A stretch of 64,000 nt of DNA from a virus. Position numbers and translations under genes: made by a program. Of this stretch, positions 36,097 to 60,315 are shown one piece after another; the first letter of the stretch is position 1; the number at the start of each line of letters is the position of its first letter. The notes beneath the pieces were generated by a model, which made no database searches, was not told the origin of the DNA, and saw only the letters and a list, made by a program, of their open reading frames with translations. The DNA lies in IMG/VR virus record IMGVR_UViG_3300046004_000518, positions 46,478-110,477 of that record. The stretch is one strand, 5' to 3'.

Positions 36097-37284
36097 TTAT
36101 CCTAATGCGATCGCTAAAGCGGTTGCGTCATCCGTTGTTGCTACTATTGCTCCACCTACTGTAATTTTGTTTGTAACATCGTTAAAGGTAAGATTTGCAC
36201 TACCACCTAAATCTCCACTACTATTATATTGTATATATGTATCACTACCACCTATTATAACAGCTTTCGATTGTGTGCCACCGCCACCAAATGTAATCTC
36301 TGGTGCATTTATAGTACCGGTGCCATTTAAATTAAAATCTATATTACCGTCTGTGCTTGCTGACAATGTAATAGTTGCACGACCTAAATCTCTATTAGTA
36401 GATAATACTAAATTGTATGCACCAAAACTTGAAATATTAGCTGCTGTACTACCATCACCTACATAAAGATGTGATAGTGCAGTAACAACGCCTGTTCCGC
36501 TTGGGTTAAGTTCAATGTTACCATCATCACTTTGCACTAATGTAATTTTCGGAGCACCTGCACCTGTGTCATTAGTAGTTAATGTTAAATCATAACTACC
36601 TTTAGATGTAACTACGCCAGCGGCACTACCACTACCAACAGTAACATTTCCTGTAACTGCAAGTGCTGTTAATGTGCCCACGGCGGTAATATTTGGTTGG
36701 CTAGCTGTTTGTATATTACCAGTTAAATTAGTTGCATAGACTTCGGCCCATTTCTGATCGGCGCTACCTAACTGATAAGTTGAATCTGTATTTGGAATAA
36801 CATTGCTGTTTACATCTGCACCAAATACAACATTATCTGTATTACTATCACCAAGTGTTAGTGTGCCACCGTTGAGTGTGCTTAAACCATGTACAGTTAA
36901 ATTACCTTGTACTGTTGCATCACCATCTACGTTTAATATGGTTAAATTTCCAACTGAAGTTAAACTAGAATTTACTACGTTTGCGCCTAGTGTTGTTGCA
37001 TTTAGTACTGACTCGCCAGCGATTGCAAATCTATCGCCAGATGCTAAATTAACACCATCTGCATCTACTGTGTGTTCGGTTGTACCGTCAATATTAATAG
37101 TTACTGAAGATCCAGAACCTGTATCAGTAATACTAACGCTGCTGTCGTTTTTTGAAATTTGACTTACACCAAGATTACCTGTGATGACAACGTTGCCTGA
37201 GGTATTGATGTCGCCTGTTGCGGCATCGATTGTTAGTGGGCCCACCGTAAGTCCGTGATGGACTACGAAATTTTTGTTAGCCAT
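36097..37284 (-). CDS. Tail fibre protein
   Basis: The 395-residue protein begins MANKNFVVHHGLTVGPLTID and has GDATVQGNLTVHGLSTLNGG, STYQLGSADQKWAEVYATNL and similar modules of phage fibres. It lacks the peptidase G2-like end found in three others. It is the first gene of the second fibre block, behind a late-type box at 37319-37326. Confidence 0.7.
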   Translation of the reverse strand: MANKNFVVHHGLTVGPLTIDAATGDINTSGNVVITGNLGVSQISKNDSSVSITDTGSGSSVTINIDGTTEHTVDADGVNLASGDRFAIAGESVLNATTLGANVVNSSLTSVGNLTILNVDGDATVQGNLTVHGLSTLNGGTLTLGDSNTDNVVFGADVNSNVIPNTDSTYQLGSADQKWAEVYATNLTGNIQTASQPNITAVGTLTALAVTGNVTVGSGSAAGVVTSKGSYDLTLTTNDTGAGAPKITLVQSDDGNIELNPSGTGVVTALSHLYVGDGSTAANISSFGAYNLVLSTNRDLGRATITLSASTDGNIDFNLNGTGTINAPEITFGGGGTQSKAVIIGGSDTYIQYNSSGDLGGSANLTFNDVTNKITVGGAIVATTDDATALAIALG

Positions 37285-40950: not shown

Positions 40951-40978
40951 ATTATACACTCTTTTATAGAATTGTCAA
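40951..40978 (-). promoter_or_regulatory. Consensus sigma-70 promoter (16-base spacer)
   Basis: TTGACA (40973-40978) and TATAAT (40951-40956) are both perfect. It lies directly behind the tmRNA terminator and 35 bases ahead of the ParB-like start. Confidence 0.88.
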
Positions 40979-41009
40979 GCAAAAAGAAAGCCCACCGAAG
41001 TGAGCTTCC
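40979..41009 (-). terminator. Rho-independent terminator of the cspA-tmRNA transcript
   Basis: Minus-strand AAGCTCAC and GTGGGCTT arms close a TTCG loop, followed by TTCTTTTT. It ends exactly where the next promoter starts. Confidence 0.88.
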
Positions 41010-41370
41010 TACTAGTTTTGATTACAAGGTATAGTTACCCCGTGGTGTTTGTTTCTTAGGCAAACGTTGCTGTTTTAGTAGCAGAACCGAAGCGGAAGCC
41101 ACGACCCATAGATACTTTTACAGCACCAGTTGTAGATGTTTTTGCATTTACAAGATTTTGTATTTTACGTGACCCCACGTGTTGAGTTGTTATCCTATCT
41201 CACGCTGTCGAAACCTGGTCAGGCCCATCAGAAGCATACTATCTCGCTAAAGACATAATCCTTACGGGACCTTAGTGACAATATACTTTTGGTGGACCTG
41301 GGCGGAATCGAACCGCCGTCCAACATGTATTACTTTACAACTTTGCCTTACGGCTACAACAATTTCTTTA
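41010..41370 (-). ncRNA. ssrA: Circularly permuted two-piece tmRNA (ssrA)
   Basis: On the minus strand the acceptor piece comes first: T arm GGCGG-TTCGATT-CCGCC, then CAGGTCC-A-CCA with CCA encoded (3' end at 41290). About 63 bases later the coding piece starts at 41226 with GGGCCTGACCAGGTTTCGAC, whose GGGCCTG pairs with CAGGTCC to form the acceptor stem. An ACGTG...CACGT hairpin fits pseudoknot 1. This 3'-half-before-5'-half order is the permuted form; the spacer (41227-41289) is presumably cut out. tmRNA with SmpB frees stalled ribosomes and tags the protein. Boundaries at 41370 and 41010 are approximate. cspA lies just upstream. Confidence 0.88.
41056..41145 (-). other. tmRNA tag reading frame (29 codons)
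   Basis: The frame in the coding piece starts at a GCA (41143-41145), 82 bases from the 5' end of that piece, close to the E. coli position of 90, with an A at -4. It runs 29 codons to TAA (41056-41058). The tag starts AKTSTTGAVK, has Lys/Arg at positions 2, 10, 15, 18 and 24, no acidic residue, and ends TATFA. It lacks the usual terminal Ala-Ala. The resume codon is inferred. Confidence 0.6.
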
Positions 41371-41381
41371 GTACTAGTGTA

Positions 41382-41585
41382 TTACACTGGTACAATATTC
41401 GAAGCTTGCTTGCCCTTAGGACCTTGTGTTACTTCAAACTTTACTGCTTGGTTTTCTGCTAGTGTTTTGAAACCTGTGCTCTCAATTGCTGAGAAGTGAG
41501 CAAATAAATCCTCACCTCCTGCGTCTGGAGTGATAAATCCAAAACCTTTTGAATCCGAAAACCATTTTACTTTACCTGTTGCCAT
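41382..41585 (-). CDS. cspA: CspA-family cold-shock protein
   Basis: The 67-residue protein is a complete cold-shock domain: [15 protein letters not shown] (RNP1) and [10 protein letters not shown] (RNP2), ending in a KGKQASNIV strand. Such proteins bind single-stranded RNA or DNA and melt structure. It lies just ahead of the tmRNA, behind a sigma-70 promoter, and the two are probably one transcript. Confidence 0.95.
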
Positions 41586-43111: not shown

Positions 43112-43501
43112 TTATGCGACCCACCCTTGACCAGTAATTTCATGTAGCCACGGATAAAAACTAGGAATCCGCATAGTCCACTCACCGTTAAAATTTAAGT
43201 AACTGGTAGTAGGTTTTGCTACAGTATCCTGATATAAAGGAATAATTTCGTGGCCGTCAATAATAACTTTAACTTCTACTGCTTCTGGATGCTGGCGTGT
43301 TACAATAACCTTAATTTCAATAGGACCATCAATTGGATAACCTTTAACTAGGATTGATTTATTACTATCTAATAGCCCATCGTGTACTACCTGCCCATTA
43401 ATCAAGGCCACACAAACACACTTATCAACAGGTGTTAGTATTAACTCTATAATAGAAGTTAATTGAGGTTTAATAGCCGTAGCTTCTGAGAAATTCTTCA
43501 T
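43112..43501 (-). CDS. Protein downstream of the radical SAM enzyme
   Basis: From the ATG at 43501 the protein has 129 residues (MKNFSEATAIKPQLTSIIEL) and is beta-rich, with IIDGHEIIPLYQ and WTMRIPSFYPWLHEITGQGW. No family recognised. It overlaps the radical SAM gene by 32 bases, so the pair is probably co-expressed; it could be a partner or substrate. Confidence 0.55.
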   Translation of the reverse strand: MKNFSEATAIKPQLTSIIELILTPVDKCVCVALINGQVVHDGLLDSNKSILVKGYPIDGPIEIKVIVTRQHPEAVEVKVIIDGHEIIPLYQDTVAKPTTSYLNFNGEWTMRIPSFYPWLHEITGQGWVA

Positions 43502-44795
43502 ATTCCGGTAAATGATCCAATATATTATTGTTGTGTACTTGTTCAAATGCCTTGGTAAACTTAACTAGATTCGCACGTTCTTGTTCGCAGTCTAAGGGCA
43601 CCTGTATAGCTTCTAAGAGCTGTTTATACTCAAAGATTAAGTTGCTGATCACAGGTCTTACAAGGTCTTCTCTACGGCGATTAATTATGGTTTCATTCGG
43701 AACCAAACTATGCCGTTGGATTACTTGATCTAATTTTGCTACGGCAGTCTTACGTAGATCATTGGGCAACAGTTCAATGCGCAGGCAAGTGGGATCGCTA
43801 AGAATATTGCAACTTTCAGCAATAACGCCATTGACCAACATGTACTCAAACACTTGATCTAAATGATATATGGTATAGATGCTAGGTGTAATACGTAAGG
43901 TAATTTGTATGCCTGTAGAATCACGTAGTGCTAGAAAACGATCTAGATTATGTTTAACTTCATCAATCTTACTTGGATAGCGTATATAATCGTTTAGTGA
44001 GTCGAATGTTTCTATACTAACGCCTAGATGAAACTGTTTAAACTCACTTATAATATCAGCAAGTTCATCACTGTAGATAGTACCATTGGTAGTAATGCCC
44101 ACAATGATATCACGGCTAATACCTGCGGCAATTAATGCTGAACATATACGATAAAAGCTCTTTAGATAAAGTGTTTCTCCACCTAAAAAGTGTAGATACT
44201 TAAGACCTTTTATTTCTATTAACTCAGTAACAAACTTATCTACTAACTCATCATTGTCTGACCAATTCTTAAAACGATCATAGGTTTTAAAAATTGTAGG
44301 CTCAATAGCTGTTAACTGTTCATACTCTTTAGTTAGACGACTGCTGTAGGTAGGATTACACATGATACAGCTACTATTACAAGTATTACCTAGATCAATT
44401 TGAATATCAACTGGCGTGCGATTGATTTGCCCATCATTCTTATACGAGTAATTAAAATTTGACCAATGCGGACTGCTGACAAATGTCTTATTAAAGTTAT
44501 CTACAGTAACAGCACTTTTCAGTAGTTGCCGTTGACGACCACTAACTTTATTATGCTGATCTTCGTAATAACAGCCCTGGCATTCTGTACTAGGAATACC
44601 GGATAGTTGCTGTGTACGAAACGCACACATTGTAGGACTGTTCATAAACTCTGCAATTGATGTGTCGCAGATATTGTAATCACTTTGCCCGTCACCTGGT
44701 CGCCATTCACTCATCCAACGACAGGGAATGTAATAGCCTGCTGGCGTTATTCTAAAGTGGAACCAAGGACTGGAGCAAAATGTATCTTTAAGCAT
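43470..44795 (-). CDS. Radical SAM protein with twitch-type (SPASM-like) features
   Basis: The 441-residue enzyme has the CxxxCxxC motif (Cys139, Cys143, Cys146) for the 4Fe-4S cluster that splits S-adenosylmethionine, a GGE motif (HFLGGETLY) that contacts SAM, and TNGT later. An N-terminal cysteine group (CSSPW, CRW, CQGCYYED) looks like the extra cluster region of twitch/SPASM-type proteins, but placed first. These enzymes often modify peptides or make cofactors. It shares a base with the ClpP stop. Confidence 0.82.
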   Translation of the reverse strand: MLKDTFCSSPWFHFRITPAGYYIPCRWMSEWRPGDGQSDYNICDTSIAEFMNSPTMCAFRTQQLSGIPSTECQGCYYEDQHNKVSGRQRQLLKSAVTVDNFNKTFVSSPHWSNFNYSYKNDGQINRTPVDIQIDLGNTCNSSCIMCNPTYSSRLTKEYEQLTAIEPTIFKTYDRFKNWSDNDELVDKFVTELIEIKGLKYLHFLGGETLYLKSFYRICSALIAAGISRDIIVGITTNGTIYSDELADIISEFKQFHLGVSIETFDSLNDYIRYPSKIDEVKHNLDRFLALRDSTGIQITLRITPSIYTIYHLDQVFEYMLVNGVIAESCNILSDPTCLRIELLPNDLRKTAVAKLDQVIQRHSLVPNETIINRRREDLVRPVISNLIFEYKQLLEAIQVPLDCEQERANLVKFTKAFEQVHNNNILDHLPEYEEFLRSYGY

Positions 44796-48066: not shown

Positions 48067-48098
48067 TTGTTCTTCCTTGTTAACAGTTTATGTATAGC

Positions 48099-48127
48099 AT
48101 TATACAGTCAATTTACCAAAATGTCAA
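48099..48127 (-). promoter_or_regulatory. Consensus sigma-70 promoter
   Basis: TTGACA (48122-48127) and TATAAT (48099-48104), 17-base spacer, minus strand. It lies back to back with the plus-strand gene at 48150. Confidence 0.9.
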
Positions 48128-48149
48128 TCGAAATAAATGTAAATACAAT

Positions 48150-49223
48150 ATGACTAATTCAATACACGTATACGTTGACTCCGACGTTAGCGAATATAAT
48201 CTAAGAATGCTCAATGAATCACAAATTATAATCTATAGAAATGTAGAAGAATTTAAATCATTGCCTGCTGGTACTAATAGACATGCATTGTTTCATGCTT
48301 GTTTTCCGTATTATTCGGATGCAGAAAATGCATTCGACGGAGTTATATTACAACTGCTGGATTTCTGTCAGACAATATCAGTTCTTGTATCTGAAGTGCA
48401 TATACCGATTGTTGATTTTATGAATCGCTTTCAACAACCACAGATGCGATATCTTATATGTGGATTTGTTGAAGGAATTACCACATATCCTTGGATGGAT
48501 TGGTTTCAAACTACTAGTGCGTTTTATAAAAATAATACAAACATATTAGATCAATTACACCCGTATGATGTTAAACCTAAACACTTTGATATATTATTAG
48601 GACAGCCCAAACCTCACAGAGATCGAATTTATCATTATATAAAAAATAACAATCTTAAAGACAAAGTAACAATGACCTATCTAGTAGATCATTGGAGTAA
48701 ATCAATTCGAGCTCATGGCACTGATGGTTTTATATTAGACGAGCCCGGATTAATAATTCCGAACGAAGAATTCAATTGGACTGTTACCCGAGTAAGCTAC
48801 TATGGTCGGCCAATGAGTTTAAGTCAGGTTGTACCAATTTCTATATACAATCAAACTGCATACACTGTGATTGCTGAAACTAATCTTGAAAATCATTATA
48901 CGTTTTTTACTGAAAAAACATGTAAACCAATTCTGGCAGAACGATTGTTTATAATGTTAGGCGGGCAATATTATCTACGCAATCTACGAGAACTCGGATT
49001 TAAAACATTTGATGGTATCATAGATGAAAGTTATGATTTGGAGCCAGATAATAATCAACGATGGGCCATGGCAATAGAACAAATGAAATATCTCTTTAAC
49101 CAACCACAAGCCGAAGTATTGGCCAAGGTTAAGCCTGTTGCCCAACACAATAAACAGGTTATGTTAACAACTGAGTGGGTAGATATTATGCGTGGCAATC
49201 TAAGAAAAATTATCACCAAGTAA
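48150..49223 (+). CDS. Glycosyltransferase-like protein (paralogue 1)
   Basis: From the ATG at 48150 the protein has 357 residues. Its C-terminal half has FFTEKTCKPILAERLFIMLG and LRELGFKTFDGIIDESYDLE, nearly the same order as in the protein at 57675-58790; the T-EK--KPI...GFKTF-GIIDESYD block resembles the donor-binding end of fucosyl- and other GT-B-like glycosyltransferases. The N-terminal half is not alike. The sugar and acceptor are unknown. A TGTAAATA box at 48138-48145 could be a late promoter. Confidence 0.6.
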   Translation: MTNSIHVYVDSDVSEYNLRMLNESQIIIYRNVEEFKSLPAGTNRHALFHACFPYYSDAENAFDGVILQLLDFCQTISVLVSEVHIPIVDFMNRFQQPQMRYLICGFVEGITTYPWMDWFQTTSAFYKNNTNILDQLHPYDVKPKHFDILLGQPKPHRDRIYHYIKNNNLKDKVTMTYLVDHWSKSIRAHGTDGFILDEPGLIIPNEEFNWTVTRVSYYGRPMSLSQVVPISIYNQTAYTVIAETNLENHYTFFTEKTCKPILAERLFIMLGGQYYLRNLRELGFKTFDGIIDESYDLEPDNNQRWAMAIEQMKYLFNQPQAEVLAKVKPVAQHNKQVMLTTEWVDIMRGNLRKIITK

Positions 49224-49256
49224 ATTAAGTGTAAATAATATTACAAGGAGAACTAC

Positions 49257-49523
49257 ATGATTAATTTTATCAAACAACTTTTTGGCTTTGGCGCACCGCA
49301 AGAAACTGTTAAAGAAATTTTAACACCACCAGCTAAAGCTGAAGTACCAGCTGCTGTTTACATTCCACCAGCTAAACCAACAAGACAACGTGCAGGCACA
49401 GTAGCAGACATTAAATTAGCACCATTACCAGCTAAAACAACTGCACCAGCTAAGAAACGTAAACCATATTATGGTAAAAAGAAATCTGCTGCAAAGACAA
49501 AAACGCCAGTGGCAGTTAAGTAA
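49257..49523 (+). CDS. Basic Pro/Lys-rich small protein
   Basis: The 88-residue protein starts MINFIKQLFGFGAP (a possible amphipathic membrane-binding helix) and continues as Pro/Ala/Lys-rich sequence (TPPAKAEVPAAVYIPPAKPT, AKKRKPYYGKKKS), likely disordered. It may bind nucleic acid or membranes. AAGGAG precedes the start and a terminator follows. Confidence 0.6.
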   Translation: MINFIKQLFGFGAPQETVKEILTPPAKAEVPAAVYIPPAKPTRQRAGTVADIKLAPLPAKTTAPAKKRKPYYGKKKSAAKTKTPVAVK

Positions 49524-49550
49524 AAAAAAGCACCGAAAGGTGCTTTTTTG
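49522..49550 (+). terminator. Bidirectional rho-independent terminator
   Basis: A run of A, the arms AGCACC and GGTGCT with a GAAA loop, then TTTTTT. It ends the plus-strand gene at 49523 and also the minus-strand amidinotransferase operon at 49556. Confidence 0.9.
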
Positions 49551-49555
49551 TGGCT

Positions 49556-50782
49556 TTAATTACGGTTGGGAAAATAATCAGTTAGTACACCAGTCCTACT
49601 TATATCACTGGTAATACAATGTATGCCGGCATCCCAAAAATGACTATGTCTAAACTGTACAATATGCGGAGTTATACCATGACGTTCAAATGCATCAAAT
49701 ATTATTTTATTATAACTTTCACATATTACATTTTTTTCATCTATTACCAACATATTAACATCGAATATAGTTTCTTCTACATAACCAACCCAATGGTTTA
49801 AATATTCTTCTACAAAGTCTACAAAGTCATCATCGATGGGTTGATTTGGAACCCACCATTTTCCACCATTTTTCTGTTTTAATTTCACAAACGGATCAAT
49901 TAACCCTAACTTATTTTCATTAGGCACGTAGACTATTTCCCAGTCAGGGAATAATTTAGTGTAGTCAGATCCTGGTATATCGTAACTACTGATAATTAGA
50001 CCAGGTTTAACGGGACTATAAGTTCCATCAGCATGTCCGGCTGTGTTAATTGCATGCCATCTGTAATCAGGATAATGTTCTCTAATTTTTTCCATCTGTC
50101 GAGTAGTATCATGATTATGATATTCATTACCTACGTAGATATCTTTGCCTATTTGAAACATTGTAGCGGTGTTAAAATTACATAGGTACCAAGGAACATC
50201 AGTGAAAATTTTATTACCATTGGTTAATATATCATCAAATGTAGATCCCCAGATTTTCTTATTCATATCGGTGATATGATATTCACCGGCAGGTCCTGTT
50301 ATTCTAACTCCGGTTAGATTAAATATTTCTTGTTTGATATTTTCTGGCAGAGCTGATAATTGATCTATTGTAATATCAGTAGGCCAATTATTACTTTTTA
50401 TAATATCCCAACTGTTTATTATTGCAGTAAAATCATTAACATTTTTTGTACCTGATCGTTCCTCGGAGTTTAGGAAATAGATTCCATCATCCATGGCAAT
50501 AGTATAATCACGAGGGCATGTTGGTGGTCTTAATATTTTTCCAGTTTTAGCAGAAGTATATTCTTGCCAATTATCGGACAATTCTGGTCGCAATACTTTG
50601 ACTCCAAAGTTCGCTAAACACTTAGCTAAGATCTGATAATCTTCTTCAGTTTCCTCAGCAATAAGTTCTAACATACTGCGGACTTTTGTATTTTTTATAA
50701 ATTTAAAAAATTCAGGCGAATATGATCTACCTAAAATACAAACTTTAAGCGGATCCCATCGTTGATATACATTATAAGTCAT
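49556..50782 (-). CDS. Amidinotransferase-fold enzyme (copy 3 of three)
   Basis: Starting at the ATG at 50782 gives 408 residues beginning MTYNVYQRWDPLKVCILGRS, parallel to the copy at 51106-52281. It has the guanidine-group-modifying enzyme residues: the Asp in CPRDYTIAMD, His in GHADGTY, and the nucleophile Cys in AGIHCITSD. In glycine or inosamine-phosphate amidinotransferases this Cys takes the amidino group from arginine. The substrate here is unknown; deiminase activity is also possible. It is the last gene of the operon from 57672. Confidence 0.82.
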   Translation of the reverse strand: MTYNVYQRWDPLKVCILGRSYSPEFFKFIKNTKVRSMLELIAEETEEDYQILAKCLANFGVKVLRPELSDNWQEYTSAKTGKILRPPTCPRDYTIAMDDGIYFLNSEERSGTKNVNDFTAIINSWDIIKSNNWPTDITIDQLSALPENIKQEIFNLTGVRITGPAGEYHITDMNKKIWGSTFDDILTNGNKIFTDVPWYLCNFNTATMFQIGKDIYVGNEYHNHDTTRQMEKIREHYPDYRWHAINTAGHADGTYSPVKPGLIISSYDIPGSDYTKLFPDWEIVYVPNENKLGLIDPFVKLKQKNGGKWWVPNQPIDDDFVDFVEEYLNHWVGYVEETIFDVNMLVIDEKNVICESYNKIIFDAFERHGITPHIVQFRHSHFWDAGIHCITSDISRTGVLTDYFPNRN

Positions 50783-51104
50783 CTGGCCAATCTCTATAAT
50801 ATGCATGTTGTATATTACCCGATACAAACTGATTAAAGCTCTTGTGCTTGTCTTCTAATTCGCCTTTCAACGGTGCCACACGTTTAAATGCATTTTCTAA
50901 CTGTGTCATATCTGTAAATTCTATCATAATATGCCACTCAGGTAAATCTTGTATGCTACGGAATCCCATCTTACAACGTGTAACTCTGTAGCTGACTGCT
51001 TTGTTCTCATCAACTAAATGTTGAAGAAAGCCCTTCATATTGTTGACCCAATCTAAATCGCTGATGTCATCTGATTTGTCAGCCCAAATATGATAAATGT
51101 CCAT
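50772..51104 (-). CDS. DUF6614-like small protein between two amidinotransferases
   Basis: From the ATG at 51104 the protein has 110 residues, MDIYHIWADKSDDISDLDWV, with RVTRCKMGFRSIQDLPEWHI and MIEFTDMTQLENAF. The pattern MDIYHIW...F...P.FH(I/V) fits a small ferredoxin-like (antibiotic monooxygenase-like) family that I believe is DUF6614. It overlaps the amidinotransferase downstream by 11 bases and lies 1 base from the one upstream, so it likely works with them. Confidence 0.6.
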   Translation of the reverse strand: MDIYHIWADKSDDISDLDWVNNMKGFLQHLVDENKAVSYRVTRCKMGFRSIQDLPEWHIMIEFTDMTQLENAFKRVAPLKGELEDKHKSFNQFVSGNIQHAYYRDWPDDL

Positions 51105-51105
51105 G

Positions 51106-52281
51106 TTAACCCCTTTCTGGAAAATAATCTTGCATGGTGCCTTTACGGCTAATATCGCTAGTGATACAATGTAGTCCACCATCCCAGAAATATCTATGAC
51201 GGAAATTTACAATATGTGGAGTAATACCATGGCGATCAAATGCATCGAATACCTGCTTGTTGTAATTGTTACACACTACATTCTTTTCATCAATGACCAA
51301 CATATTGACATCGAATACAGTTTCTTCTACATAGCCAACCCAATGCGACATCCATTGCTCGACGTAGTTAGTAAAATCATCATTAAGTTCTTCTCCAGGA
51401 ACCCACCATTTGCCCATGTTTTTTCTTTTAAGATCTAAGAATGGCGCTACTGCTTCCCAGCTTTGTCCGGGCAAATACACAACTTCCCAGTCTGGAAAGG
51501 TTTTAGCATACGTAGGAATATCATTTAGACTAACTATCAATCCCGGTTTAACTGGGCAAAAGGTACCATCGTTATGTCCACCAGTGTCTACACTGTGCCA
51601 TCTATATTGTGGTTTGTTTAGATTGAGCCATTTGATTTTTTCGGATATATCCTGCTTATAATGCTGTGTACCTGCGTAGATGTCTCGACCGACACGAGTG
51701 TAAGTTGCTGCATTTAAATCTCCAGCAAAATACATACTTTCTTTAGAACTTATATCTCCCCGTTGATCTTTTGTTCGATCTAATAGAGTTTTCCAGGTAA
51801 AATTAATATCAGTTAATTCACTGTCGGCTTTGATTGCTAGTAATTCATCGAAAACCCAGTCTGGTAATTCAGCTACTTCTTCGATGGTAGTGGGACAGTT
51901 AGGTGGCCAATCAGCTCCTTTGAGCTGATCCCAGGTAGCTTGACCTGCATCAAATGTTGCTCGTTGTGCATAGTTAAAATAGAATTGGTCACCTAACATC
52001 AATGAATAATCCCTGGGAGTCATAGGCGGTGGCTTTATTGAACCGCCTTGATTTAAATAAAATTCATAATCATCACTAACCTCAGGACGAATTACTTCAA
52101 CCTTGAATGATTCTAATAATTTAATCAATGATTGAAAATCTTCTTCTGTTTCTTCTGCTATTTTTTCAAATACAGCTCGAACTTTATTATTTTTAATATA
52201 AGAATAAAATTGTGGACTGTAGCCTCGTCCGACTACACACACTTCCAACGGATCCCAGTGTTGATAAACAGAATATGTCAT
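51106..52281 (-). CDS. Amidinotransferase-fold enzyme (copy 2 of three)
   Basis: The 391-residue protein starts MTYSVYQHWDPLEVCVVGRG and is a close paralogue of the 49556 copy along its full length, differing mainly in the middle. It keeps Asp in TPRDYSLMLGD, His in GHNDGTFCPVKPG and Cys in GGLHCITSD. The family moves an amidino group from arginine to an amine, or hydrolyses guanidines. The two copies could be subunits of one enzyme or act on different amines. It shares a base with the GNAT-like gene. Confidence 0.82.
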   Translation of the reverse strand: MTYSVYQHWDPLEVCVVGRGYSPQFYSYIKNNKVRAVFEKIAEETEEDFQSLIKLLESFKVEVIRPEVSDDYEFYLNQGGSIKPPPMTPRDYSLMLGDQFYFNYAQRATFDAGQATWDQLKGADWPPNCPTTIEEVAELPDWVFDELLAIKADSELTDINFTWKTLLDRTKDQRGDISSKESMYFAGDLNAATYTRVGRDIYAGTQHYKQDISEKIKWLNLNKPQYRWHSVDTGGHNDGTFCPVKPGLIVSLNDIPTYAKTFPDWEVVYLPGQSWEAVAPFLDLKRKNMGKWWVPGEELNDDFTNYVEQWMSHWVGYVEETVFDVNMLVIDEKNVVCNNYNKQVFDAFDRHGITPHIVNFRHRYFWDGGLHCITSDISRKGTMQDYFPERG

Positions 52282-52706
52282 TATAATTTTCCTAGTAGTT
52301 CAAATCCATCTAATTGATTTTTATATTCATCTGCTAATCCCAGATACAAATATTCAAATCCACGTGCTTTATATATAGCACATTCATTTTTTAAACTTTC
52401 TATTCCTAATCTAAGTTTTGGATTCTGATAGTCCCACGCAAACTGCAATGCTTCGGCACTATACTTGTCATATGTCCTAACTAAACTAAATGCAACTAAA
52501 TCATTATTATCATAATATCCAATAACATCAGTGTGCTCATCATGATATTGTATATCGAATATTGGCATCACACTCGTGAACTGTTTGTATTCACAATATA
52601 ATTTATAAATTTGATTTAATTTATTGATGTCAAATTGATGCAGATATTGATAATTGTTCAAAGGCCGGTAATCGGTCTTGCTTAGATCAATTCTACAGTA
52701 TTTCAT
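52281..52706 (-). CDS. GNAT-fold protein, arginyltransferase-like end
   Basis: In the 141-residue protein the second half reads VIGYYDNNDLVAFSLVRTYD, then LRLGIESLKNECAIYKARGF and YLYLG. This fits a GNAT acyl/aminoacyl-transferase fold and is like the C-terminal part of Ate1/Bpt-type tRNA-dependent transferases (S/R-LG-x-SL..E...-G-YLYLG). It is much shorter than those. Arginyl transfer would tie in with the neighbouring arginine-using amidinotransferases, but is speculative. Confidence 0.55.
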   Translation of the reverse strand: MKYCRIDLSKTDYRPLNNYQYLHQFDINKLNQIYKLYCEYKQFTSVMPIFDIQYHDEHTDVIGYYDNNDLVAFSLVRTYDKYSAEALQFAWDYQNPKLRLGIESLKNECAIYKARGFEYLYLGLADEYKNQLDGFELLGKL

Positions 52707-53204
52707 TTAACTATTATAACGCCATGTAACTACTTCGTCAAGTTCTGATTGACTCCAAGAGTCATAATAACCTGCGGCGCGAAGTTTGTCAGCCGCTTCG
52801 TTTAGCTTACTTAACCGTTGGATAACATATAATCCACACTGCCCAAAATTCATTTTAATACGGTTGACGTGTTCAACTAAGTCTGGATGATCTTCAAGGA
52901 TAACATAATCGTGTTCCATTAACTCATCATTTAGTGTGGCAGTTAAATTTTGGCAGTCTATGCCTGATATTAGTGTATGGTCAAAACAAATAACAACTAC
53001 TTCATACTCACCAAGTAATGGCAAAATACGATTAACATTATAAGTAAGTTCGGGAATAGTACTGTCTGTTATATATATCTTGTTATTTAATCGTGCGGCT
53101 TGTGCATAAGGACACGGCGCCCAAGTACCCAATGCTGGATTCGGTTTCTCAACAAACGTTTTCATCCATTCGATTAGTTGAGTTTTAATTATCTCGAAAT
53201 TCAT
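52707..53204 (-). CDS. Conserved phage protein (165 aa)
   Basis: The protein includes NPALGTWAPCPYAQAARLNN and ICFDHTLISGIDC, which I recall from uncharacterised proteins of marine phages; a buried Cys-Pro (PCPYA) may be functional. It overlaps the virion protein gene by one base and abuts the GNAT-like gene. Function unknown. Confidence 0.55.
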   Translation of the reverse strand: MNFEIIKTQLIEWMKTFVEKPNPALGTWAPCPYAQAARLNNKIYITDSTIPELTYNVNRILPLLGEYEVVVICFDHTLISGIDCQNLTATLNDELMEHDYVILEDHPDLVEHVNRIKMNFGQCGLYVIQRLSKLNEAADKLRAAGYYDSWSQSELDEVVTWRYNS

Positions 53205-54253
53205 TAGTCAATAATGCCAAAGTTTGCCCAACGTGCGCCACCTATGCATACCCATCCTATAGGCCCACCCGGTGAAGGCAATTCATTATAAACAATCTGT
53301 GCTAGTTCACCTGCATAGTTTGGAACTGTGGCCGATGATGTCATTGCCACACGACCCACAACTAAATTTTCTACATGTACATTACCTTCAGTATCGAGTA
53401 CAATATTTTCTTTATTGTTACTACCGAGTATCAACGGTTGTTTACGTGCTGTGCCAATGTATCCAGTATCCTGTTTACGTTTGGCTACGACTAATTCAAC
53501 TTCTTCATCCCAAACTGCCAACGCACTGCTTGGCTCCATGGTGTTAACACCAACTCTACGTTGTGTGACATAAAGTGTTTCACTTAATAAATTCTCGCCC
53601 GATGTTTGTAAGTCTTTAACCACACCTACACGTTGTAGATTACTATCAACAATATGATATCCTAGTTGCGATCCTTTAACAATTTCTTTACCACCTTGTG
53701 TGATGCGATCTAAATCAATGCCGGTTTCCTGCATCTTAGCAAATACAATATCACTGAATCCAGTAAACAATTGTGCATCAAGTTTATCAACAACTGCGGC
53801 ACTGGCGGCAGAAACAAACTGTGCAAATCCCGGGCTTGCTTCTGACACAGTGCCATTGAGATTCAGTGCACCATCAATTGTTAAATCGCCTTTGATTTCT
53901 GCGCTAGGTGCAAATACAGAATTTTCAAATGCCACAGCATGATCCATAAGTGTCATCTGTACAAAACTGGCTCGATCTTCAATGCCAGTACTGCCGAAGT
54001 TTTGTACAATACCGCTGTTGATATTATCGCCGGATAGACTAAATCCTCGAAAATTTACAGCAGTGTGTGGTATACTTTGTTCTGGGAAACTATGTAATTT
54101 AATTATCTCAGCTATTTTAGATTTGACAATTTCATTTACTATTAGGTTGAGATCAATAGTGGCTAATTGTTTTTTTAGTTCTTGCTCGATTGTTGCGTTG
54201 AGGTTGCCTAATAAGCCGGCGACGACAGGCTGTAATTGTTGATTGATATCCAT
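53204..54253 (-). CDS. Virion structural (fibre-like) protein inside the sugar/amidino operon
   Basis: The 349-residue protein has a helical N-terminus (about residues 1-55, possibly coiled), NFRGFSLSGDNINSGIVQNF, KGDLTIDGALNLNGTVSEAS and LSETLYVTQRRVGVNTMEPS followed by a long beta part, and a C-terminal IGWVCIGGARWANFG. The repeated NLxxxGDLTIDG and RVGVNT-EPSSAL pattern is seen in phage fibres. It is the only structural-looking gene in the amidinotransferase operon, hence a candidate target of its modification. Confidence 0.65.
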   Translation of the reverse strand: MDINQQLQPVVAGLLGNLNATIEQELKKQLATIDLNLIVNEIVKSKIAEIIKLHSFPEQSIPHTAVNFRGFSLSGDNINSGIVQNFGSTGIEDRASFVQMTLMDHAVAFENSVFAPSAEIKGDLTIDGALNLNGTVSEASPGFAQFVSAASAAVVDKLDAQLFTGFSDIVFAKMQETGIDLDRITQGGKEIVKGSQLGYHIVDSNLQRVGVVKDLQTSGENLLSETLYVTQRRVGVNTMEPSSALAVWDEEVELVVAKRKQDTGYIGTARKQPLILGSNNKENIVLDTEGNVHVENLVVGRVAMTSSATVPNYAGELAQIVYNELPSPGGPIGWVCIGGARWANFGIID

Positions 54254-54271
54254 ATGCTCACTCGAAAAACT

Positions 54272-55003
54272 TTAAATTGAAATTGATATTACATGCTCAT
54301 AGTTTCTACGTATAAGACTTTTGTACATTAAATCCTTGTGTACATAAAACTGTTTAGCACCAGCATCGATACTAAACTTTGCTAACTGTTTAAAAAACAT
54401 TGCGCGACGACTAAACGGACCATACGATTTTGTATTACTATCCTGCATTTCATATACCGTTGTTGCCCATGCATTTTTATCTGAATATTCATACTTGTGA
54501 TATTCTAAAAATACCAAACTATCACTGTGATTATAAACTGCCTGTGGTTGACTAAACTCACGGTCTTTAAAGTTCTGATTTTTATAATCACGTAATGTCG
54601 TAACTATTAAATCCTTAGCTAAACTGGCAATTATTTCCACACTAGTCTGTTGCTCTTGCTCTGTGTTGGCAAATGTGAAATATTCATCACCTGCTACTAC
54701 CCACGAGAATTGTTTCTTATATCCCGGTAAATCTTTTACATCTATATATGTGTATTTAATGTCGCTAGCGTCGAGGTAATTTTTTGTTTCGTCGGTTATG
54801 TTAGTAACAAATATTTGTTTATAAGTAACACCCAACATCAATGGGCTAAAACCGACAAATAAGATACTTGTTGGGTTAGATTTGTAGTGATGAGCAATGC
54901 CAGTTAGTATCTCTTGCTTTTTATTAATTGCATCTTGACTTTTAAGATTAAATTGCAAAGCATTAAGTGATGCTTGTGTGTACGTCGCGAAGCTATGCGG
55001 CAT
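54272..55003 (-). CDS. Conserved phage protein, Rossmann-like (243 aa)
   Basis: The protein has TSILFVGFSPLMLGVTYKQI followed by strand-turn units (IFVTNITDETKNYL, YTYIDVKDLPGY) and FSWVVAGDEYFTFANTEQEQ, like a SAM-dependent methyltransferase without a clear GxGxG. The C-terminal FFKQLAKFSIDAGAKQFYVH block is conserved in marine phage homologues (memory). Function unknown; a methyltransferase is possible. Confidence 0.5.
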   Translation of the reverse strand: MPHSFATYTQASLNALQFNLKSQDAINKKQEILTGIAHHYKSNPTSILFVGFSPLMLGVTYKQIFVTNITDETKNYLDASDIKYTYIDVKDLPGYKKQFSWVVAGDEYFTFANTEQEQQTSVEIIASLAKDLIVTTLRDYKNQNFKDREFSQPQAVYNHSDSLVFLEYHKYEYSDKNAWATTVYEMQDSNTKSYGPFSRRAMFFKQLAKFSIDAGAKQFYVHKDLMYKSLIRRNYEHVISISI

Positions 55004-55030
55004 TGTAATTCCCCTGTTACAAATATTTAG

Positions 55031-55945
55031 TTATTCTCTAACTAAATCAAGGGTTACGCAGTGGAAGCCACCGCCAAGTGTCCTGCTATGACGTAGTTGC
55101 ATTGGAATAGTCGTAAAACCTGCCTTCTCTAAGTCTTCTATAAGTCTATATTGTGCCCGATCGACAATTACTGTATTAGGATCTATACTCAACATGTTTA
55201 AGCCAATCCATTTACTTGCGTATGGATATTCATGAAAACCTTGTGCTTCAACGTCATTAACCCATAGTTTAGTCCAACCATCAAAGGCTCGAGGGCAGGT
55301 ATCGGGAGTTACTCTGCTGGCATTAAGTACAACAAAGCCTTCTCGTAACGGAACAATGGTGCTGTCGATATGCACACCATTAAACAATTTACATGATTCG
55401 ATAGTGATATGCGGTAATTTTTTACGTAGCCAATCTAATGCCAATTGATTGCCACTGTCGCTTAATAGATATAACCAAGTGTTACCAAGTCTGCATACAT
55501 TGGCCGCATCCATTACCATACCTTGATTGCGTGGCATTGGCATTACTGTGTTGGCAGACCTTAGCACAAAATCTAATGCTTCAATTTCTTGATCACGGCA
55601 AGGATACATCATTGCAGGATCTATAACACAACCATCAGCAATTAATAATCTATCACGTGGGCAATAATTATACATGCCCCCACGTTCAACAAAATTCATT
55701 TCGTGTGGGCGAAATACTTCTATACCTAATTTAGTTAATACAGTAGCAAGCTCATCTAAATCTTCATTTGACTCGTCAACAATCCATTGCGGTACAGGAC
55801 CGCTTGGTACTGGTGTTTCCTTCCATAATGTTTTTAAATGCTCTTGTGAGAATACAGGATCATTACTAGGCCAATTTGCGTAGGTAGCTGATCCCACTAC
55901 AATACTTTTTAATTTGCCCCATTCATTACTTGTGCTTATTTTCAT
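55031..55945 (-). CDS. Amidinotransferase-fold enzyme (copy 1 of three, divergent)
   Basis: This 304-residue protein is shorter and more distant than the other two. It keeps NYCPRDRLLIADG (Asp), GVHIDSTIVPLREG (His and Asp) and GGGFHCVTLDL (Cys). The start WGKLKSIVVGSA is typical of the glycine amidinotransferase/arginine deiminase fold. It overlaps the 2OG oxygenase gene by 20 bases. It could be the enzyme for a different acceptor in the same pathway. Confidence 0.82.
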   Translation of the reverse strand: MKISTSNEWGKLKSIVVGSATYANWPSNDPVFSQEHLKTLWKETPVPSGPVPQWIVDESNEDLDELATVLTKLGIEVFRPHEMNFVERGGMYNYCPRDRLLIADGCVIDPAMMYPCRDQEIEALDFVLRSANTVMPMPRNQGMVMDAANVCRLGNTWLYLLSDSGNQLALDWLRKKLPHITIESCKLFNGVHIDSTIVPLREGFVVLNASRVTPDTCPRAFDGWTKLWVNDVEAQGFHEYPYASKWIGLNMLSIDPNTVIVDRAQYRLIEDLEKAGFTTIPMQLRHSRTLGGGFHCVTLDLVRE

Positions 55946-56447
55946 CTATATGTCCTGTTATCTGCAATGTATATCTTGGAGTCAGTCCCATGTTTGCCGC
56001 AAGGTGCAGACGATCGTATTGCCAAATTACAACATCGCCTGCTGACCAATTAACAATTGGTGTGTTATCTAATTCCAAATAATGTCCGCTGGCCCATGCT
56101 TCTAAAAATACCACAGCACGAAATATAGTGTGCTCTTGTCCTTTGAGATCGAACAACTCTATATATCTTTTATAGGTATCTCGATGAGCAGGTAATACTG
56201 TTCCACTGCTCATACGATAATAACTAGTGCCAACATCAGACCAGCCGAGTTTATTAAAGTATTTAACAAACATCGGGTTCCAAACTGGTTGTGGTCTACG
56301 CATATCACACATAGCGCCAGTGAACTTGCCTGGATAACCCTGTTCTATCCATGTGGCTGTATCATTAGGATTGTTAAATGCTTCTACAGCATAGTCAAGT
56401 TGTTTAAAACTATCATCCCAAAATGGTTGAATATTAAACTTGTCCAC
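55926..56447 (-). CDS. 2-oxoglutarate/Fe(II) oxygenase, Asp/Asn hydroxylase-like
   Basis: The 173-residue protein has the facial triad His88-x-Asp90 (LPAHRDTYKR) and His148 (YDRLHLAANM), and Arg158 (TPRYTLQITG), which binds 2-oxoglutarate. The order and GHYLELDNTPIVNWSAGDVV fit cupin-like aspartyl/asparaginyl beta-hydroxylases. It probably hydroxylates an amino acid, sugar or nucleobase in this operon's pathway. It overlaps ugd by 14 bases. Confidence 0.78.
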   Translation of the reverse strand: MDKFNIQPFWDDSFKQLDYAVEAFNNPNDTATWIEQGYPGKFTGAMCDMRRPQPVWNPMFVKYFNKLGWSDVGTSYYRMSSGTVLPAHRDTYKRYIELFDLKGQEHTIFRAVVFLEAWASGHYLELDNTPIVNWSAGDVVIWQYDRLHLAANMGLTPRYTLQITGHIDENKHK

Positions 56448-57672
56448 GAGTATTTCCGTAATGGATTACCTTGTAATTAGTGCTGTTAAATTTGCGCCAT
56501 GGATCTAATATAATACTTTGACTACCAGGAGTAAAGTATAATTGTTGTTCTGGCAATTCACCGGTGTAGCCATAGGTAATCTGGCGATTGTGTGCTAATA
56601 ATACCACAGCATCTTGTCCATCAGCAACCGTGTCACCAGTTAATGGGTCACTGTAACTAAATTCTACACCTAAGTCTGTTAAGTAGTGCCCTATTAATAA
56701 ACTGTAGCTACCATCTAACATATCCACATCGGGCTTATAAGCCTTGCCATGAATAACCACAGGCAAGTTGTGTTCATCTGCTAGGTCAGTTAAGTATACC
56801 GCAAGATTTTCTGCTTGCTTTTCTCTGGCGTGCATGACTGTGTCAAAGATATCGTAGCCTAGGTCTAGATTCTCAGCTAGCCAACGTAGGGCAATGTTAT
56901 CACGTGGGTGACAAGGACCAGCATCGCCCATGCCTGCCGTCATATACTTGGTACTGATAATACGCATAGTCGATGCGCATAGTGCGCCAGTTACAACATC
57001 AACATCGATATTGCCCGATTTCATAGCAACGTCTTGTATCATGTTTACCAGACCAACTTTAGTTGAAATAAAAGTATTATAGAAAATCTTAATTGCTTCT
57101 GCTTCATCCCACGTACCAACAGCAATATGCGGATTGTTCTGCATCAATGGTGCGTAAAAGTCCGTAAGCAACTTAGCATCACCTGTTACACTTCCATCTT
57201 CTGTACCAATAATAATCATATCTGGATTTACCATATCCCAAGCCACACTGCCCATAGCAATTAAATATGGGTTATAGATAAAACGTGCGTTGGTAATATG
57301 CTTGCGTAGTTCTCTACGTGTGGTACCCGGTAATACTGTACTGATTAATACTACAAGCTGGTCTTGTGTTACATATTGATTAATATCTGCTAGGACCTGA
57401 TTTACAATAGTGTAATCAAAGTCTTTGTTAGCCAGGTGGGTAATAGGTTGACTACCATCATAGATTGGATCATGTGGTGTTTGTACTGCTACAAAGATAA
57501 CATCTTTGCCACGCACTGCTCCTTCTAATGTATCAGATATTGTTATCTTGCTACTAGTCCGTGGGTAAATATCATAGCCAGTGACAGCATATGATTGTGC
57601 CATTACTTCTGCACATGCTAGGCCTAGTTTACCGATTCCAACGAATCCTACTGTTTTTAATTGAGACGACAT
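56434..57672 (-). CDS. ugd: UDP-glucose 6-dehydrogenase-like enzyme
   Basis: The 412-residue protein has the NAD motif GIGKLG (residues 12-17), AVQTPHDP, STVLPGTT, the catalytic Cys254 in AGPCHPRDN, and VIHGKAYKPDVDMLDGS for the C-terminal sugar-binding part. Ugd oxidises UDP-glucose twice to UDP-glucuronate. The ATG is three bases away from the start of a divergent plus-strand gene. It is the first gene of the amidinotransferase operon and gives a sugar acid for glycosylation. Confidence 0.88.
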   Translation of the reverse strand: MSSQLKTVGFVGIGKLGLACAEVMAQSYAVTGYDIYPRTSSKITISDTLEGAVRGKDVIFVAVQTPHDPIYDGSQPITHLANKDFDYTIVNQVLADINQYVTQDQLVVLISTVLPGTTRRELRKHITNARFIYNPYLIAMGSVAWDMVNPDMIIIGTEDGSVTGDAKLLTDFYAPLMQNNPHIAVGTWDEAEAIKIFYNTFISTKVGLVNMIQDVAMKSGNIDVDVVTGALCASTMRIISTKYMTAGMGDAGPCHPRDNIALRWLAENLDLGYDIFDTVMHAREKQAENLAVYLTDLADEHNLPVVIHGKAYKPDVDMLDGSYSLLIGHYLTDLGVEFSYSDPLTGDTVADGQDAVVLLAHNRQITYGYTGELPEQQLYFTPGSQSIILDPWRKFNSTNYKVIHYGNTRGQV

Positions 57673-57674
57673 TA

Positions 57675-58790
57675 ATGCTCCAAGTTGATCATGTTTACGA
57701 ATTTTTTTACTCTACTATCTTCAATGAATTCGAGATGTGTTTTTGTTTGGGCGGAGTCGTTATTTCCGACGCAGCAAACACTCATGTATTTACACGCATT
57801 GCTATGGAGGAGAAAAAAATCTTCTTTTATGATCAGGAACCATTTATACCTAGTCTAGCATTGCCGTATATGTCAAAGTTTATAACCGAACAAGGTCCAC
57901 ATATTTTAGCAATCAGCGAACATTCGGCTTGCCTAAATGATTACATCACAGACAACAATTTTAATAAATTATATTATTTCTTTCACGGCTTTGCGGCATT
58001 AGATTGGTATCGTGGATTCTATGCTCTTAACTATAATAAGCAAGTAGTTAAAGAATATACGCATGACTATGTAACGTTTAATCGTTTGGTGGCCAACGAC
58101 CGCAGTTATCGTTGTTACTTTGTTAGTAAGCTGGCAGAAGAATTTTTGTTAGAACACGGACAAATTAGTTTTGGGCTAGCAACAGAGCAGGCCACTTGGC
58201 AGGAAGAAATTGCTGATGGTAATACAAAATTATCATCTAAAGCAATTGATCATATTAAACTGCATTTACCAAGCACGCCATTGGTTATAGATAATGAACA
58301 GGTATTGGGTTCAGCTAGTGCAGATATCCCACGTTGCATTAATGATAGCCTGTGGCATATTGTAACCGAAACTGTGTTCTACTATGATAAACTACACCTA
58401 ACTGAAAAGATATTTAAACCTATTGTAATGAAACAACCATTTATGTTACTTGGCGCACTGGGTAATTTAGCCTACTTAAAGTCATACGGCTTTAAAACAT
58501 TTGAAGGCATAATAGATGAATCGTATGATTTTATTCAAGACAATGATCTACGTATAGAAGCTGTAGTTAAGCAGTTAGCTTGGTACTGTGCGTTAACAGC
58601 AGAAGAAAAACAACAGGTTATAGAGGCTATAGCGCCAATCGTAGAGTACAATTTCCATCACTTCTACGGTGAGTTCAAGCATATTATCACAAGAGAACTA
58701 CTTGATAATTGTCAGACTCTATTCAAGGAAATAGGCTACGACGATAACGCCATAGCCTATGATGATATATATCGAGTACTAACTAGTTAA
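57675..58790 (+). CDS. Glycosyltransferase-like protein (paralogue 2)
   Basis: From the ATG at 57675 the protein has 371 residues. IFFYDQEPFIPSL near the start and HLTEKIFKPIVMKQPFMLLG, LKSYGFKTFEGIIDESYDF near the end match the donor-binding style of fucosyltransferase-like enzymes, and the C-terminal block is shared with the protein at 48150. An ATG at 57735 is a possible later start. It faces away from ugd, so the two flank a shared start area. It is likely a GT for the sugar made by the operon (inference). Confidence 0.6.
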   Translation: MLQVDHVYEFFYSTIFNEFEMCFCLGGVVISDAANTHVFTRIAMEEKKIFFYDQEPFIPSLALPYMSKFITEQGPHILAISEHSACLNDYITDNNFNKLYYFFHGFAALDWYRGFYALNYNKQVVKEYTHDYVTFNRLVANDRSYRCYFVSKLAEEFLLEHGQISFGLATEQATWQEEIADGNTKLSSKAIDHIKLHLPSTPLVIDNEQVLGSASADIPRCINDSLWHIVTETVFYYDKLHLTEKIFKPIVMKQPFMLLGALGNLAYLKSYGFKTFEGIIDESYDFIQDNDLRIEAVVKQLAWYCALTAEEKQQVIEAIAPIVEYNFHHFYGEFKHIITRELLDNCQTLFKEIGYDDNAIAYDDIYRVLTS

Positions 58791-59248: not shown

Positions 59249-60280
59249 TTAATTTTCAAGGCTTTTCCAGAACTCATACAACTTAAAACTGGCTAAGTTC
59301 TTGCCTTTTGCCTCTACCATTATATCAGCCCACTGCCAGTGCTGATGTGCCCATTCATTTACAGCAGTATTCCACATAAAGTCTGAATGTGCTCGCAGTT
59401 TGCTTTTCTTGTAGCCCTGTTCTAATAATAAATTATAATCAGGTTTTACCTCAACATCATGATCAACGAGATAATCTTCACGACTAATGCTATAATGTAC
59501 AACAGGACGGACGCCACGCCAAGCATCCAGAATGCGTTGGATACGCGAGTCCATAGCGTTGATATATTCCCCCTCACGAACAAAATGGTGATGGACATCG
59601 AGCACAATAGGAATACCATGATCGCTAAGAACAAGACAGTCGTCTAGGCCATGTTTCATTTCCTCATTTTCTATAGTTAAGGTATTACGTGCTTCGGGTG
59701 ATAACTTACCGTAGACGTCAATAATACCTTGTGCACCTCTACGACCTGCAATATGCACATTACACTTGAAGTCTTGGAATGTCCGACCATAGCCCATCCA
59801 ACGGATCATATCCGCATGGTATTCAAATTCGTCTATACTTCTTCGAACAATGTCATCATTATCACTCGCAAGTACTGTGAATTGACCTGGATGAAAAGAT
59901 AAGCGCACATCAAGCAAACGAGCAAGCTCACCCACCTTACTGAACGCCTGCTCGCAATAACTAACGACATCAGGCTTGCGCCAAAAATAACACCAATCAG
60001 ACTGAGTGTATACTGGTAGTATATCAGAGCTGATACGAACCATCCTAAGGTTGCCATTTAATGTTCCAATTCGTTCTATTAACTTACGTGTTGATTCTAT
60101 GTTACCTACCATTAGGTCCCATAGTTTTTGTTCGGCAACTTCCTTAGTCTGGCGATTAAGCCATGCTACTGTTGTACTTCCGGTATTATACTGTTTAGCA
60201 TCATCAAGAGGTTTGATCCCAAGAACTTGATCGGGGCGATCAATCCACTTACAAGCAAAGCCGATGCGTTTAGTATTCAT
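59249..60280 (-). CDS. uvdE: UV damage endonuclease (UvdE/UVDE family)
   Basis: The 343-residue protein starts MNTKRIGFACKWIDRPDQVL and has the TIM-barrel metal sites of UVDE: LSFHPGQFTV, FKCNVHIAG, LTIENEEMKH, VLDVHHHFV and HSDFMWN. The enzyme nicks 5' to UV photoproducts and begins an alternative excision repair. The ATG lies 6 bases past the promoter TATAAT, so the message may be leaderless. T4 itself uses a different enzyme (DenV). Confidence 0.9.
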   Translation of the reverse strand: MNTKRIGFACKWIDRPDQVLGIKPLDDAKQYNTGSTTVAWLNRQTKEVAEQKLWDLMVGNIESTRKLIERIGTLNGNLRMVRISSDILPVYTQSDWCYFWRKPDVVSYCEQAFSKVGELARLLDVRLSFHPGQFTVLASDNDDIVRRSIDEFEYHADMIRWMGYGRTFQDFKCNVHIAGRRGAQGIIDVYGKLSPEARNTLTIENEEMKHGLDDCLVLSDHGIPIVLDVHHHFVREGEYINAMDSRIQRILDAWRGVRPVVHYSISREDYLVDHDVEVKPDYNLLLEQGYKKSKLRAHSDFMWNTAVNEWAHQHWQWADIMVEAKGKNLASFKLYEFWKSLEN

Positions 60281-60286
60281 AATATT

Positions 60287-60315
60287 ATTATACAATTAAT
60301 TTATTAAATTGTCAA
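60287..60315 (-). promoter_or_regulatory. Consensus sigma-70 promoter of uvdE
   Basis: TTGACA (60310-60315) and TATAAT (60287-60292), 17-base spacer. The ATG of uvdE (60280) falls at the expected transcription start. Confidence 0.88.

Follow-up and report, generated by a model that had tools for sequence, protein, structure and literature searches.

The 64,000-nucleotide stretch that we analyzed (the window) corresponds to bases 46478-110477 of the IMG/VR virus record IMGVR_UViG_3300046004_000518, which has 110,477 bases, is classed as linear, and is probably a fragment. The window contains a run of ten open reading frames (ORFs) on the minus strand, from position 57672 down to 49556, that is bounded by two plus-strand paralogs (48090-49223 and 57591-58790). 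An earlier reading of this DNA without database searches (the sequence-only reading) described ten genes that overlap or touch, with two paralogs flanking them on the other strand. We confirmed both points. If we use the likely starts for two of the genes (51104 for D6614 and 50782 for AT1, both of which are shorter than the listed ORFs), then five of the nine junctions are overlaps (of up to 20 nt), at two the genes abut or are one base apart, and the remaining two are gaps of 18 and 27 bases. We find that the ten genes comprise two units: a conserved core and an accessory cassette. The core, with its flanking genes, contains an NDP-sugar (nucleoside-diphosphate-sugar) dehydrogenase, an oxygenase, an amidinotransferase, a protein with a methyltransferase fold, a fiber-like protein, and divergent glycosyltransferase-like (GT-like) genes:

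57591-58790 (probable start 57675), plus strand: GTb, GT-like protein, divergent from ugd; conserved neighbor of the module with a weak match to the GT-B fold
56434-57672, minus strand: ugd, NDP-sugar dehydrogenase of the UDP-glucose type; matches UDP-glucose dehydrogenases in PDB (3.5e-18) and TIGR03026 (6.9e-43)
55926-56447, minus strand: OG, 2-oxoglutarate (2OG) Fe(II) oxygenase of the Asp/Asn beta-hydroxylase type; identified by alignment and PF05118
55031-55945, minus strand: AT3, StrB1-like amidinotransferase; matches StrB1 in PDB (1bwd, 1.2e-58)
54272-55003, minus strand: ross, class I methyltransferase fold; structure model with pLDDT 91.8
53204-54253, minus strand: fib, fiber-like protein; weak profile matches and weak matches to structural PHROGs
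48090-49223, plus strand: GTa, paralog of GTb that closes the locus; identified by paralogy

The probable start of GTb and the start codon of ugd are two bases apart and the genes diverge, so the ribosome-binding site of each gene lies inside the other.

The module encoded at this locus is real, and it is conserved and widespread among phages. A single scan of the viral collection found relatives of AT3 at 509 stretches. Across 61 viral loci that we found with AT3 (54-100% identity), the recurring order is GTb in reverse orientation (-), then ugd, OG, AT3, ross, and fib. A second scan gave 75 freshwater-type loci, which overlap the first set of 61 and include some near-duplicates. Among these 75, OG is directly upstream of AT3 in 73 (with a 4-nt overlap in 39), and the other genes near AT3 are ugd (72), GT (69), fib (60), and ross (44). 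Because OG pairs with AT3 in 73/75 of the freshwater loci, while the counts for ugd, fib, and ross are lower, we conclude that OG and AT3 are the heart of the module and that parts of the family have lost ugd, fib, or ross. Among marine T4-like phages, 61 of 78 loci have OG in the neighborhood of AT3. The most common marine order is mini-DegT, OG, and AT3, where mini-DegT is a DegT-type aminotransferase of ~195 amino acids. ugd is near AT3 in 11 marine loci, and directly after it in ten; in locus L280, mini-DegT, AT3, OG, and a GT-like gene are in a row, with ugd divergent. GT25-like genes are also present in marine clusters. The sequence-only reading had raised the possibility that relatives would have these genes only singly. 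Instead, we see linkage among the OG-AT3 pair, mini-DegT, and the dehydrogenase in both freshwater and marine phages.

Several other genes are found near the core. A twitch-domain radical S-adenosylmethionine (SAM) protein is encoded at 43470-44795 of the window (minus strand; NF033640, above the cut-off), and L007, L038, and L057 have relatives of it within the core module or next to it. A phosphomannomutase-type haloacid dehalogenase (HAD) enzyme (PF03332; 2.1e-24 in L050) adjoins the module at L044:11696-12403 and L050:11862-12569. A UV-endonuclease-like gene, which we named by eye (59249-60295 of the window, minus strand), closely trails the core module in many relatives. Also, a 4.4-kb contig that is labelled as a Bacteroidetes metagenome-assembled genome (MAG; L097) contains GT, OG, AT3, and fib in the phage order. 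Its AT3 is at 60% identity, and it is likely to be a misbinned phage contig.

The source is a large freshwater virus that infects bacteria. It is likely to be a large T4-like phage, because the T4-type major capsid family, Gp23, is found in 5 of the 13 related records that we tested (including the four longest) and because the window contains several fiber-like genes as well as GroES/GroEL-like and ClpP-like genes (read by eye from the sequence starts). Relatives with the same core genes reach 357 kb. We could not link the lineage in a jumbo-phage paper (PMC12619734) to this phage. Gp23 was not found in the available 110-kb part of the source record (G000). The window also contains a transfer-messenger RNA (tmRNA) gene at 40965-41384 (minus strand; Rfam beta_tmRNA, 84.6 versus a gathering score of 84). 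Its predicted tag is unusually long, and the same site also matches a permuted-tmRNA model.

We also examined the functional residues of the core enzymes. AT3 matches StrB1 far better than it matches AGAT (3.7e-23; 5.4e-23 for human AGAT). D98, D146, H192, D194, R211, and C296 of AT3 align with Asp170, Asp254, His303, Asp305, Arg322, and Cys407 of human AGAT, which we take to be the catalytic Cys-His-Asp, the guanidinium-binding Asp residues, and, in the case of Arg322, the residue that holds the carboxylate of arginine. All six are invariant across 15 diverse members of the family, including the one from Synechococcus phage S-SCSM2R. AT3 keeps the full known set of catalytic and arginine-binding residues, and it is predicted to transfer an amidino group from L-arginine. 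In OG, the residues of the HxD...H metal site (H88, D90, and H148) and the 2OG-binding R158 are invariant in an alignment of 30 members. PF05118 is found in 16 of the 30 (8.8e-6 at best), and the OG protein from the window scores 14.9 bits, versus a gathering threshold of 22.6.

The sequence-only reading annotated ugd as UDP-glucose dehydrogenase. It does appear to be a dehydrogenase, as the catalytic residues (Cys254, Lys195, Asn199, and Asp258) are near-invariant across 62 aligned rows. It scores 146.9 bits against TIGR03026, below NCBI's cut-off of 189.8 bits, and we consider it to be a divergent NDP-sugar dehydrogenase. Of 80 marine loci that we collected with the enzyme from S-SCSM2R, 74 contain mini-DegT, and in 40 of those 74 it is two genes upstream of AT3. 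The source phage has mini-DegT as well, at bases 13-540 of the record, which is outside the window and at the opposite end from the operon. mini-DegT is also present in each of the six AT3-bearing records that reach at least 315 kb, and in G003 it adjoins GalE (TIGR01179, above the cut-off). The lysine that binds pyridoxal phosphate (Lys111) and the pyridine-binding Asp87 are invariant and at the expected positions (PF01041, 4e-17). The large relatives have a sugar cluster beside thymidylate synthase (L089, L091, and L093), with a dehydratase-like short-chain dehydrogenase/reductase and a full-length DegT aminotransferase; the cluster in L091 also includes a NodU-type carbamoyltransferase.

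Amidinotransferases are found next to other kinds of 2OG oxygenases as well. The source phage has a fourth amidinotransferase-fold gene outside the window, at 28113-29174 of the record (L086:8113-9174). In this protein, the catalytic Asp is replaced by His, and its gene is two genes away from a weak match to 2OG-FeII_Oxy_3. The second amidinotransferase gene of S-SCSM2R overlaps a 2OG gene, an amidinotransferase gene of L078 overlaps a 2OG-FeII_Oxy_5 gene, and in L106, a 2OG gene is just upstream of the amidinotransferase. These four 2OG partners belong to families other than OG. Also, a contig from a Bdellovibrionota MAG has an OG-AT3 pair, with a 4-nt overlap and with no evident phage genes nearby. 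Because amidinotransferases repeatedly adjoin different 2OG families, these pairings are suggestive of shared chemistry rather than chance linkage, but T4-like marine phages are rich in 2OG genes, which tempers the argument. L106, which is labelled as a Chloroflexi MAG but is probably a phage contig, has a group of closely spaced genes of the following kinds: GT-like, 2OG, AT3, mini-DegT, carbamoyltransferase, and tryptophan-halogenase-type.

Downstream of the core genes of the operon is the accessory cassette:

52707-53204, minus strand: DUF6875-like protein; PF21780 (8.9e-4, below the cut-off) and phrog_10325 (6e-13)
52281-52706, minus strand: GNAT-fold-like protein; ATE_C (5.7e-5, just under the cut-off) and arginyltransferase (4.1e-4)
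51106-52281, minus strand: AT2, amidinotransferase-fold enzyme; matches StrB1 and AGAT in PDB
50772-51104 (likely start 51104, with GAAAGGGG upstream), minus strand: D6614, DUF6614 protein; PF20319 (3.7e-22)
49556-50782 (likely start 50782), minus strand: AT1, paralog of AT2; its active site is altered in the same ways

The sequence-only reading was correct that one of these is a DUF6614 protein and that the operon encodes three amidinotransferase-fold (pentein-fold) proteins, with PDB matches to StrB1 and AGAT. For its GNAT-like protein, the nearest match is the C-terminal domain of arginyl-tRNA-protein transferase, just under the cut-off. It also stated that all three amidinotransferases keep Asp, His, and Cys, which is not the case: in AT1 and AT2, Asn replaces AGAT's catalytic Asp254 and there is no Arg where AGAT has Arg322, and only AT3 has the full set. 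We therefore rejected the AGAT mechanism for AT1 and AT2. Furthermore, AT1, AT2, and the fourth amidinotransferase form a deep clade that is separate from AT3. Because L003 is the only other locus with the complete cassette (DUF6875-GNAT-AT2-DUF6614-AT1), and L018 and L065 have just parts of it, we rejected the proposal that all ten genes and all three amidinotransferases form a single pathway. In L065, the cassette adjoins genes that resemble those at ~17.8-19.4 kb of the window (by eye, from the ORF starts), so the cassette appears to move as a unit. In marine phages, AT2-type genes adjoin DUF6875-like genes in L068, L069, and L076, and in L066, L067, L070, and L071 their neighbor encodes a small protein that has a monooxygenase-like match, albeit a weak one. 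A match of AT2 to Ty5 Gag was under the cut-off, and we took it to be due to chance.

The altered active sites, the separate clade, and the accessory nature of the cassette would be explained if AT1 and AT2 are non-catalytic or differently acting pentein homologs, either as partners or with another donor, that just happen to be downstream of the core. On the other hand, AT1 and AT2 keep the Cys, the His, and the guanidinium-binding Asp residues, and an alignment of the AT2 family shows no variation at these positions, which argues for some activity. We consider the chances that this explanation is correct to be evenly balanced.

The sequence-only reading described ross as Rossmann-like. More exactly, it has a class I methyltransferase fold. 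The model is most similar to N-methyltransferases that act on small molecules or amino sugars (TylM1, DesVI, and CalS10; TM-scores of ~0.62-0.68), but the GxGxG motif for binding SAM is absent: in the alignment, VGFSP or VGFNP is found instead. The fib profile weakly matches fiber-like ORFs in the window at 36097-37284 (7.6e-6) and 16062-17750 (1.3e-5).

We propose that the core, together with the distant mini-DegT, makes a guanidinylated and probably hydroxylated amino sugar or sugar-like residue, which is transferred to a glycan. We hold this proposal tentatively, with slightly less than even confidence. The genes are linked, and the active sites of OG, AT3, the dehydrogenase, and mini-DegT are intact. 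First, the dehydrogenase and/or a GalE-like enzyme would oxidize a nucleotide-sugar, which mini-DegT would aminate. AT3 would then move the amidino group from L-arginine to the amine, much as StrB1 does in streptidine synthesis; OG would hydroxylate the substrate or the product; and the GT-like proteins would attach the product. The likeliest recipient would be a glycan on the host's surface, which might exclude competing phages, or the phage's own fiber. We infer every reaction, the order of the reactions, and the target. By analogy, the precedent of the pelagimyophages would favor a host-surface glycan (PMC7029224), while the fiber-like gene in the operon favors a virion protein. The sequence-only reading had also suggested a pathway for a guanidino- or hydroxy-modified sugar; this idea is strengthened by the linkage of OG-AT3, mini-DegT, and the dehydrogenase, but its scope of ten genes does not hold.

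Several observations weigh against our proposal. The StrB1-like sequence of AT3 would be compatible with more than one acceptor. mini-DegT lacks the usual C-terminal domain (~195 amino acids versus 360 positions in the model), and in freshwater phages it is far from AT3. ugd is absent from some freshwater loci (L029, L035, and L039, among others), and the UDP-binding C-terminal domain is recognized only weakly in the marine homolog from L275 (PF03720, 0.057). GTa and GTb are indeed paralogs, but the evidence for calling them glycosyltransferase-like, as the sequence-only reading did, is weak: we found no credible Pfam match in 34 homologs, and the best fold matches, which are to GT-B enzymes, have E values of 0.045 or worse. 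The source record is a 110-kb fragment, and the Campylobacter phage CP220 has no recognizable 2OG gene beside its amidinotransferase. Finally, our counts of loci are not independent, as the loci were collected by searching with AT3 and several contigs are near-duplicates.

Alternatively, OG might hydroxylate the fiber-like protein, the GT-like proteins might glycosylate the resulting hydroxyl, and AT3 might convert lysine to homoarginine or guanidinylate the added sugar. This would fit with OG's similarity to Asp/Asn hydroxylases, with the fiber-like gene in the operon and near AT3 in most freshwater loci (60/75), with the twitch-type radical SAM genes nearby, and with the GT25-like genes in marine clusters. 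(The GT25 family also includes collagen galactosyltransferases.) However, several freshwater loci (L029, L040, L049, and L053, for instance) have no fiber-like gene near AT3; the gene was not detected in the marine set, where OG-AT3 is still present; and no fiber gene is evident beside the OG-AT3 pair from Bdellovibrionota. We think that modification of a virion protein in this way is unlikely.

Two other explanations seem less probable still. Glycine and other amino acids can serve as substrates for members of the amidinotransferase family, and free amino acids are substrates of several 2OG oxygenases, so the phage might form a free guanidino compound (guanidinoacetate or a derivative of hydroxy-arginine) that alters the host's nitrogen metabolism. 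A survey does place a phage amidinotransferase under amino-acid metabolism (PMC8226683). But AT3's closest relative of solved structure is the aminocyclitol enzyme StrB1, not AGAT, and the recurrent neighbors are sugar and glycosyltransferase genes, which makes this auxiliary role improbable. As for adding a sugar or a guanidino group to the bases of phage DNA, phages with glycosylated DNA are well known, and the presence of a sugar dehydrogenase and transferases would be compatible with this. Yet OG is of the Asp/Asn hydroxylase type, and of 17 records, 12 had no match to the thymidylate synthase/hydroxymethylase family (PF00303); these 12 include three that bear AT3 and are 316-347 kb long. 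Because these three records lack a hydroxymethylase of the thymidylate-synthase type, we disfavor DNA as the target, and we consider DNA modification to be very unlikely. A search for Tet/JBP (PF12851) gave no match, but the control was silent too, so this excludes nothing.

It is useful to compare the module to known systems. The streptidine branch of streptomycin biosynthesis combines oxidation, a DegT-type aminotransferase, and the amidinotransferase StrB1. The phage genes have the same chemical logic, with a StrB1-like AT3, a DegT-family aminotransferase, and a sugar-type dehydrogenase. They differ in being in a phage genome, in the shortened DegT, in the use of an NDP-sugar dehydrogenase, and in the addition of a 2OG oxygenase and GT-like genes.

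The sequence-only reading stated that no phage system with this content had been described, which holds only in part. A 2010 report on Campylobacter phages CP220 and CPt10 described an interchangeable gene cluster in which a putative glycine amidinotransferase accompanies five radical-SAM genes (PMC2853527). This is also a phage amidinotransferase in an exchangeable cluster, and in CP220 it is followed by genes with nucleotide-diphospho-sugar transferase domains. However, the amidinotransferase is just 24% identical, and there are radical-SAM enzymes instead of a recognizable 2OG oxygenase. We did not see ugd or mini-DegT in the 21-kb stretch of CP220 either, and gp085, which we considered as a hidden 2OG oxygenase, did not match the OG profile or Pfam. 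Synechococcus phage S-SCSM2R (PQ898602) is more similar: it has an overlapping OG-AT3 pair (AT3 is 35% identical to the protein from the window, and OG is 28% identical), mini-DegT, glycosyltransferases, and radical SAM. The pair lies among glycosyltransferases, and the genes were annotated one by one. S-SCSM2R is from a marine cyanophage lineage, and it has no fiber-like, ross, or ugd gene beside OG-AT3. The pelagimyophages, which are T4-like, encode an Asp/Asn hydroxylase as well as UDP-glucose dehydrogenase and glycosyltransferases; in the parts of the paper that we drew on, the sugar genes of the host-recognition cluster are read as modifying the host's O-antigen, and those parts do not mention an amidinotransferase or a DegT-OG-AT unit (PMC7029224). 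For amidinotransferases in cyanophages, we found only a mention in the reference list of one paper, but most subscription journals were outside our search, so this absence is not proof.

To our knowledge, the function of this module has apparently been tested by nobody, and we know of no virus with guanidino-sugar chemistry. The sugar genes of phages are usually thought to modify DNA or the host's O-antigen with common sugars. The presence of a hydroxylase and an aminoglycoside-type amidinotransferase in a widespread module suggests that phages make guanidinylated glycans. More broadly, T4-like phages from fresh water and seawater might have a pathway dedicated to guanidino-sugars and use it to place positively charged sugars on the host's surface or the virion, which we view as possible but doubtful. 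The shortened DegT enzyme is a further oddity that can be tested. If phages do make guanidinylated glycans, this would change surface charge and phage-host recognition, and because the AT3 family occurs at 509 stretches, determining the function of one enzyme would annotate a large and dark gene family.

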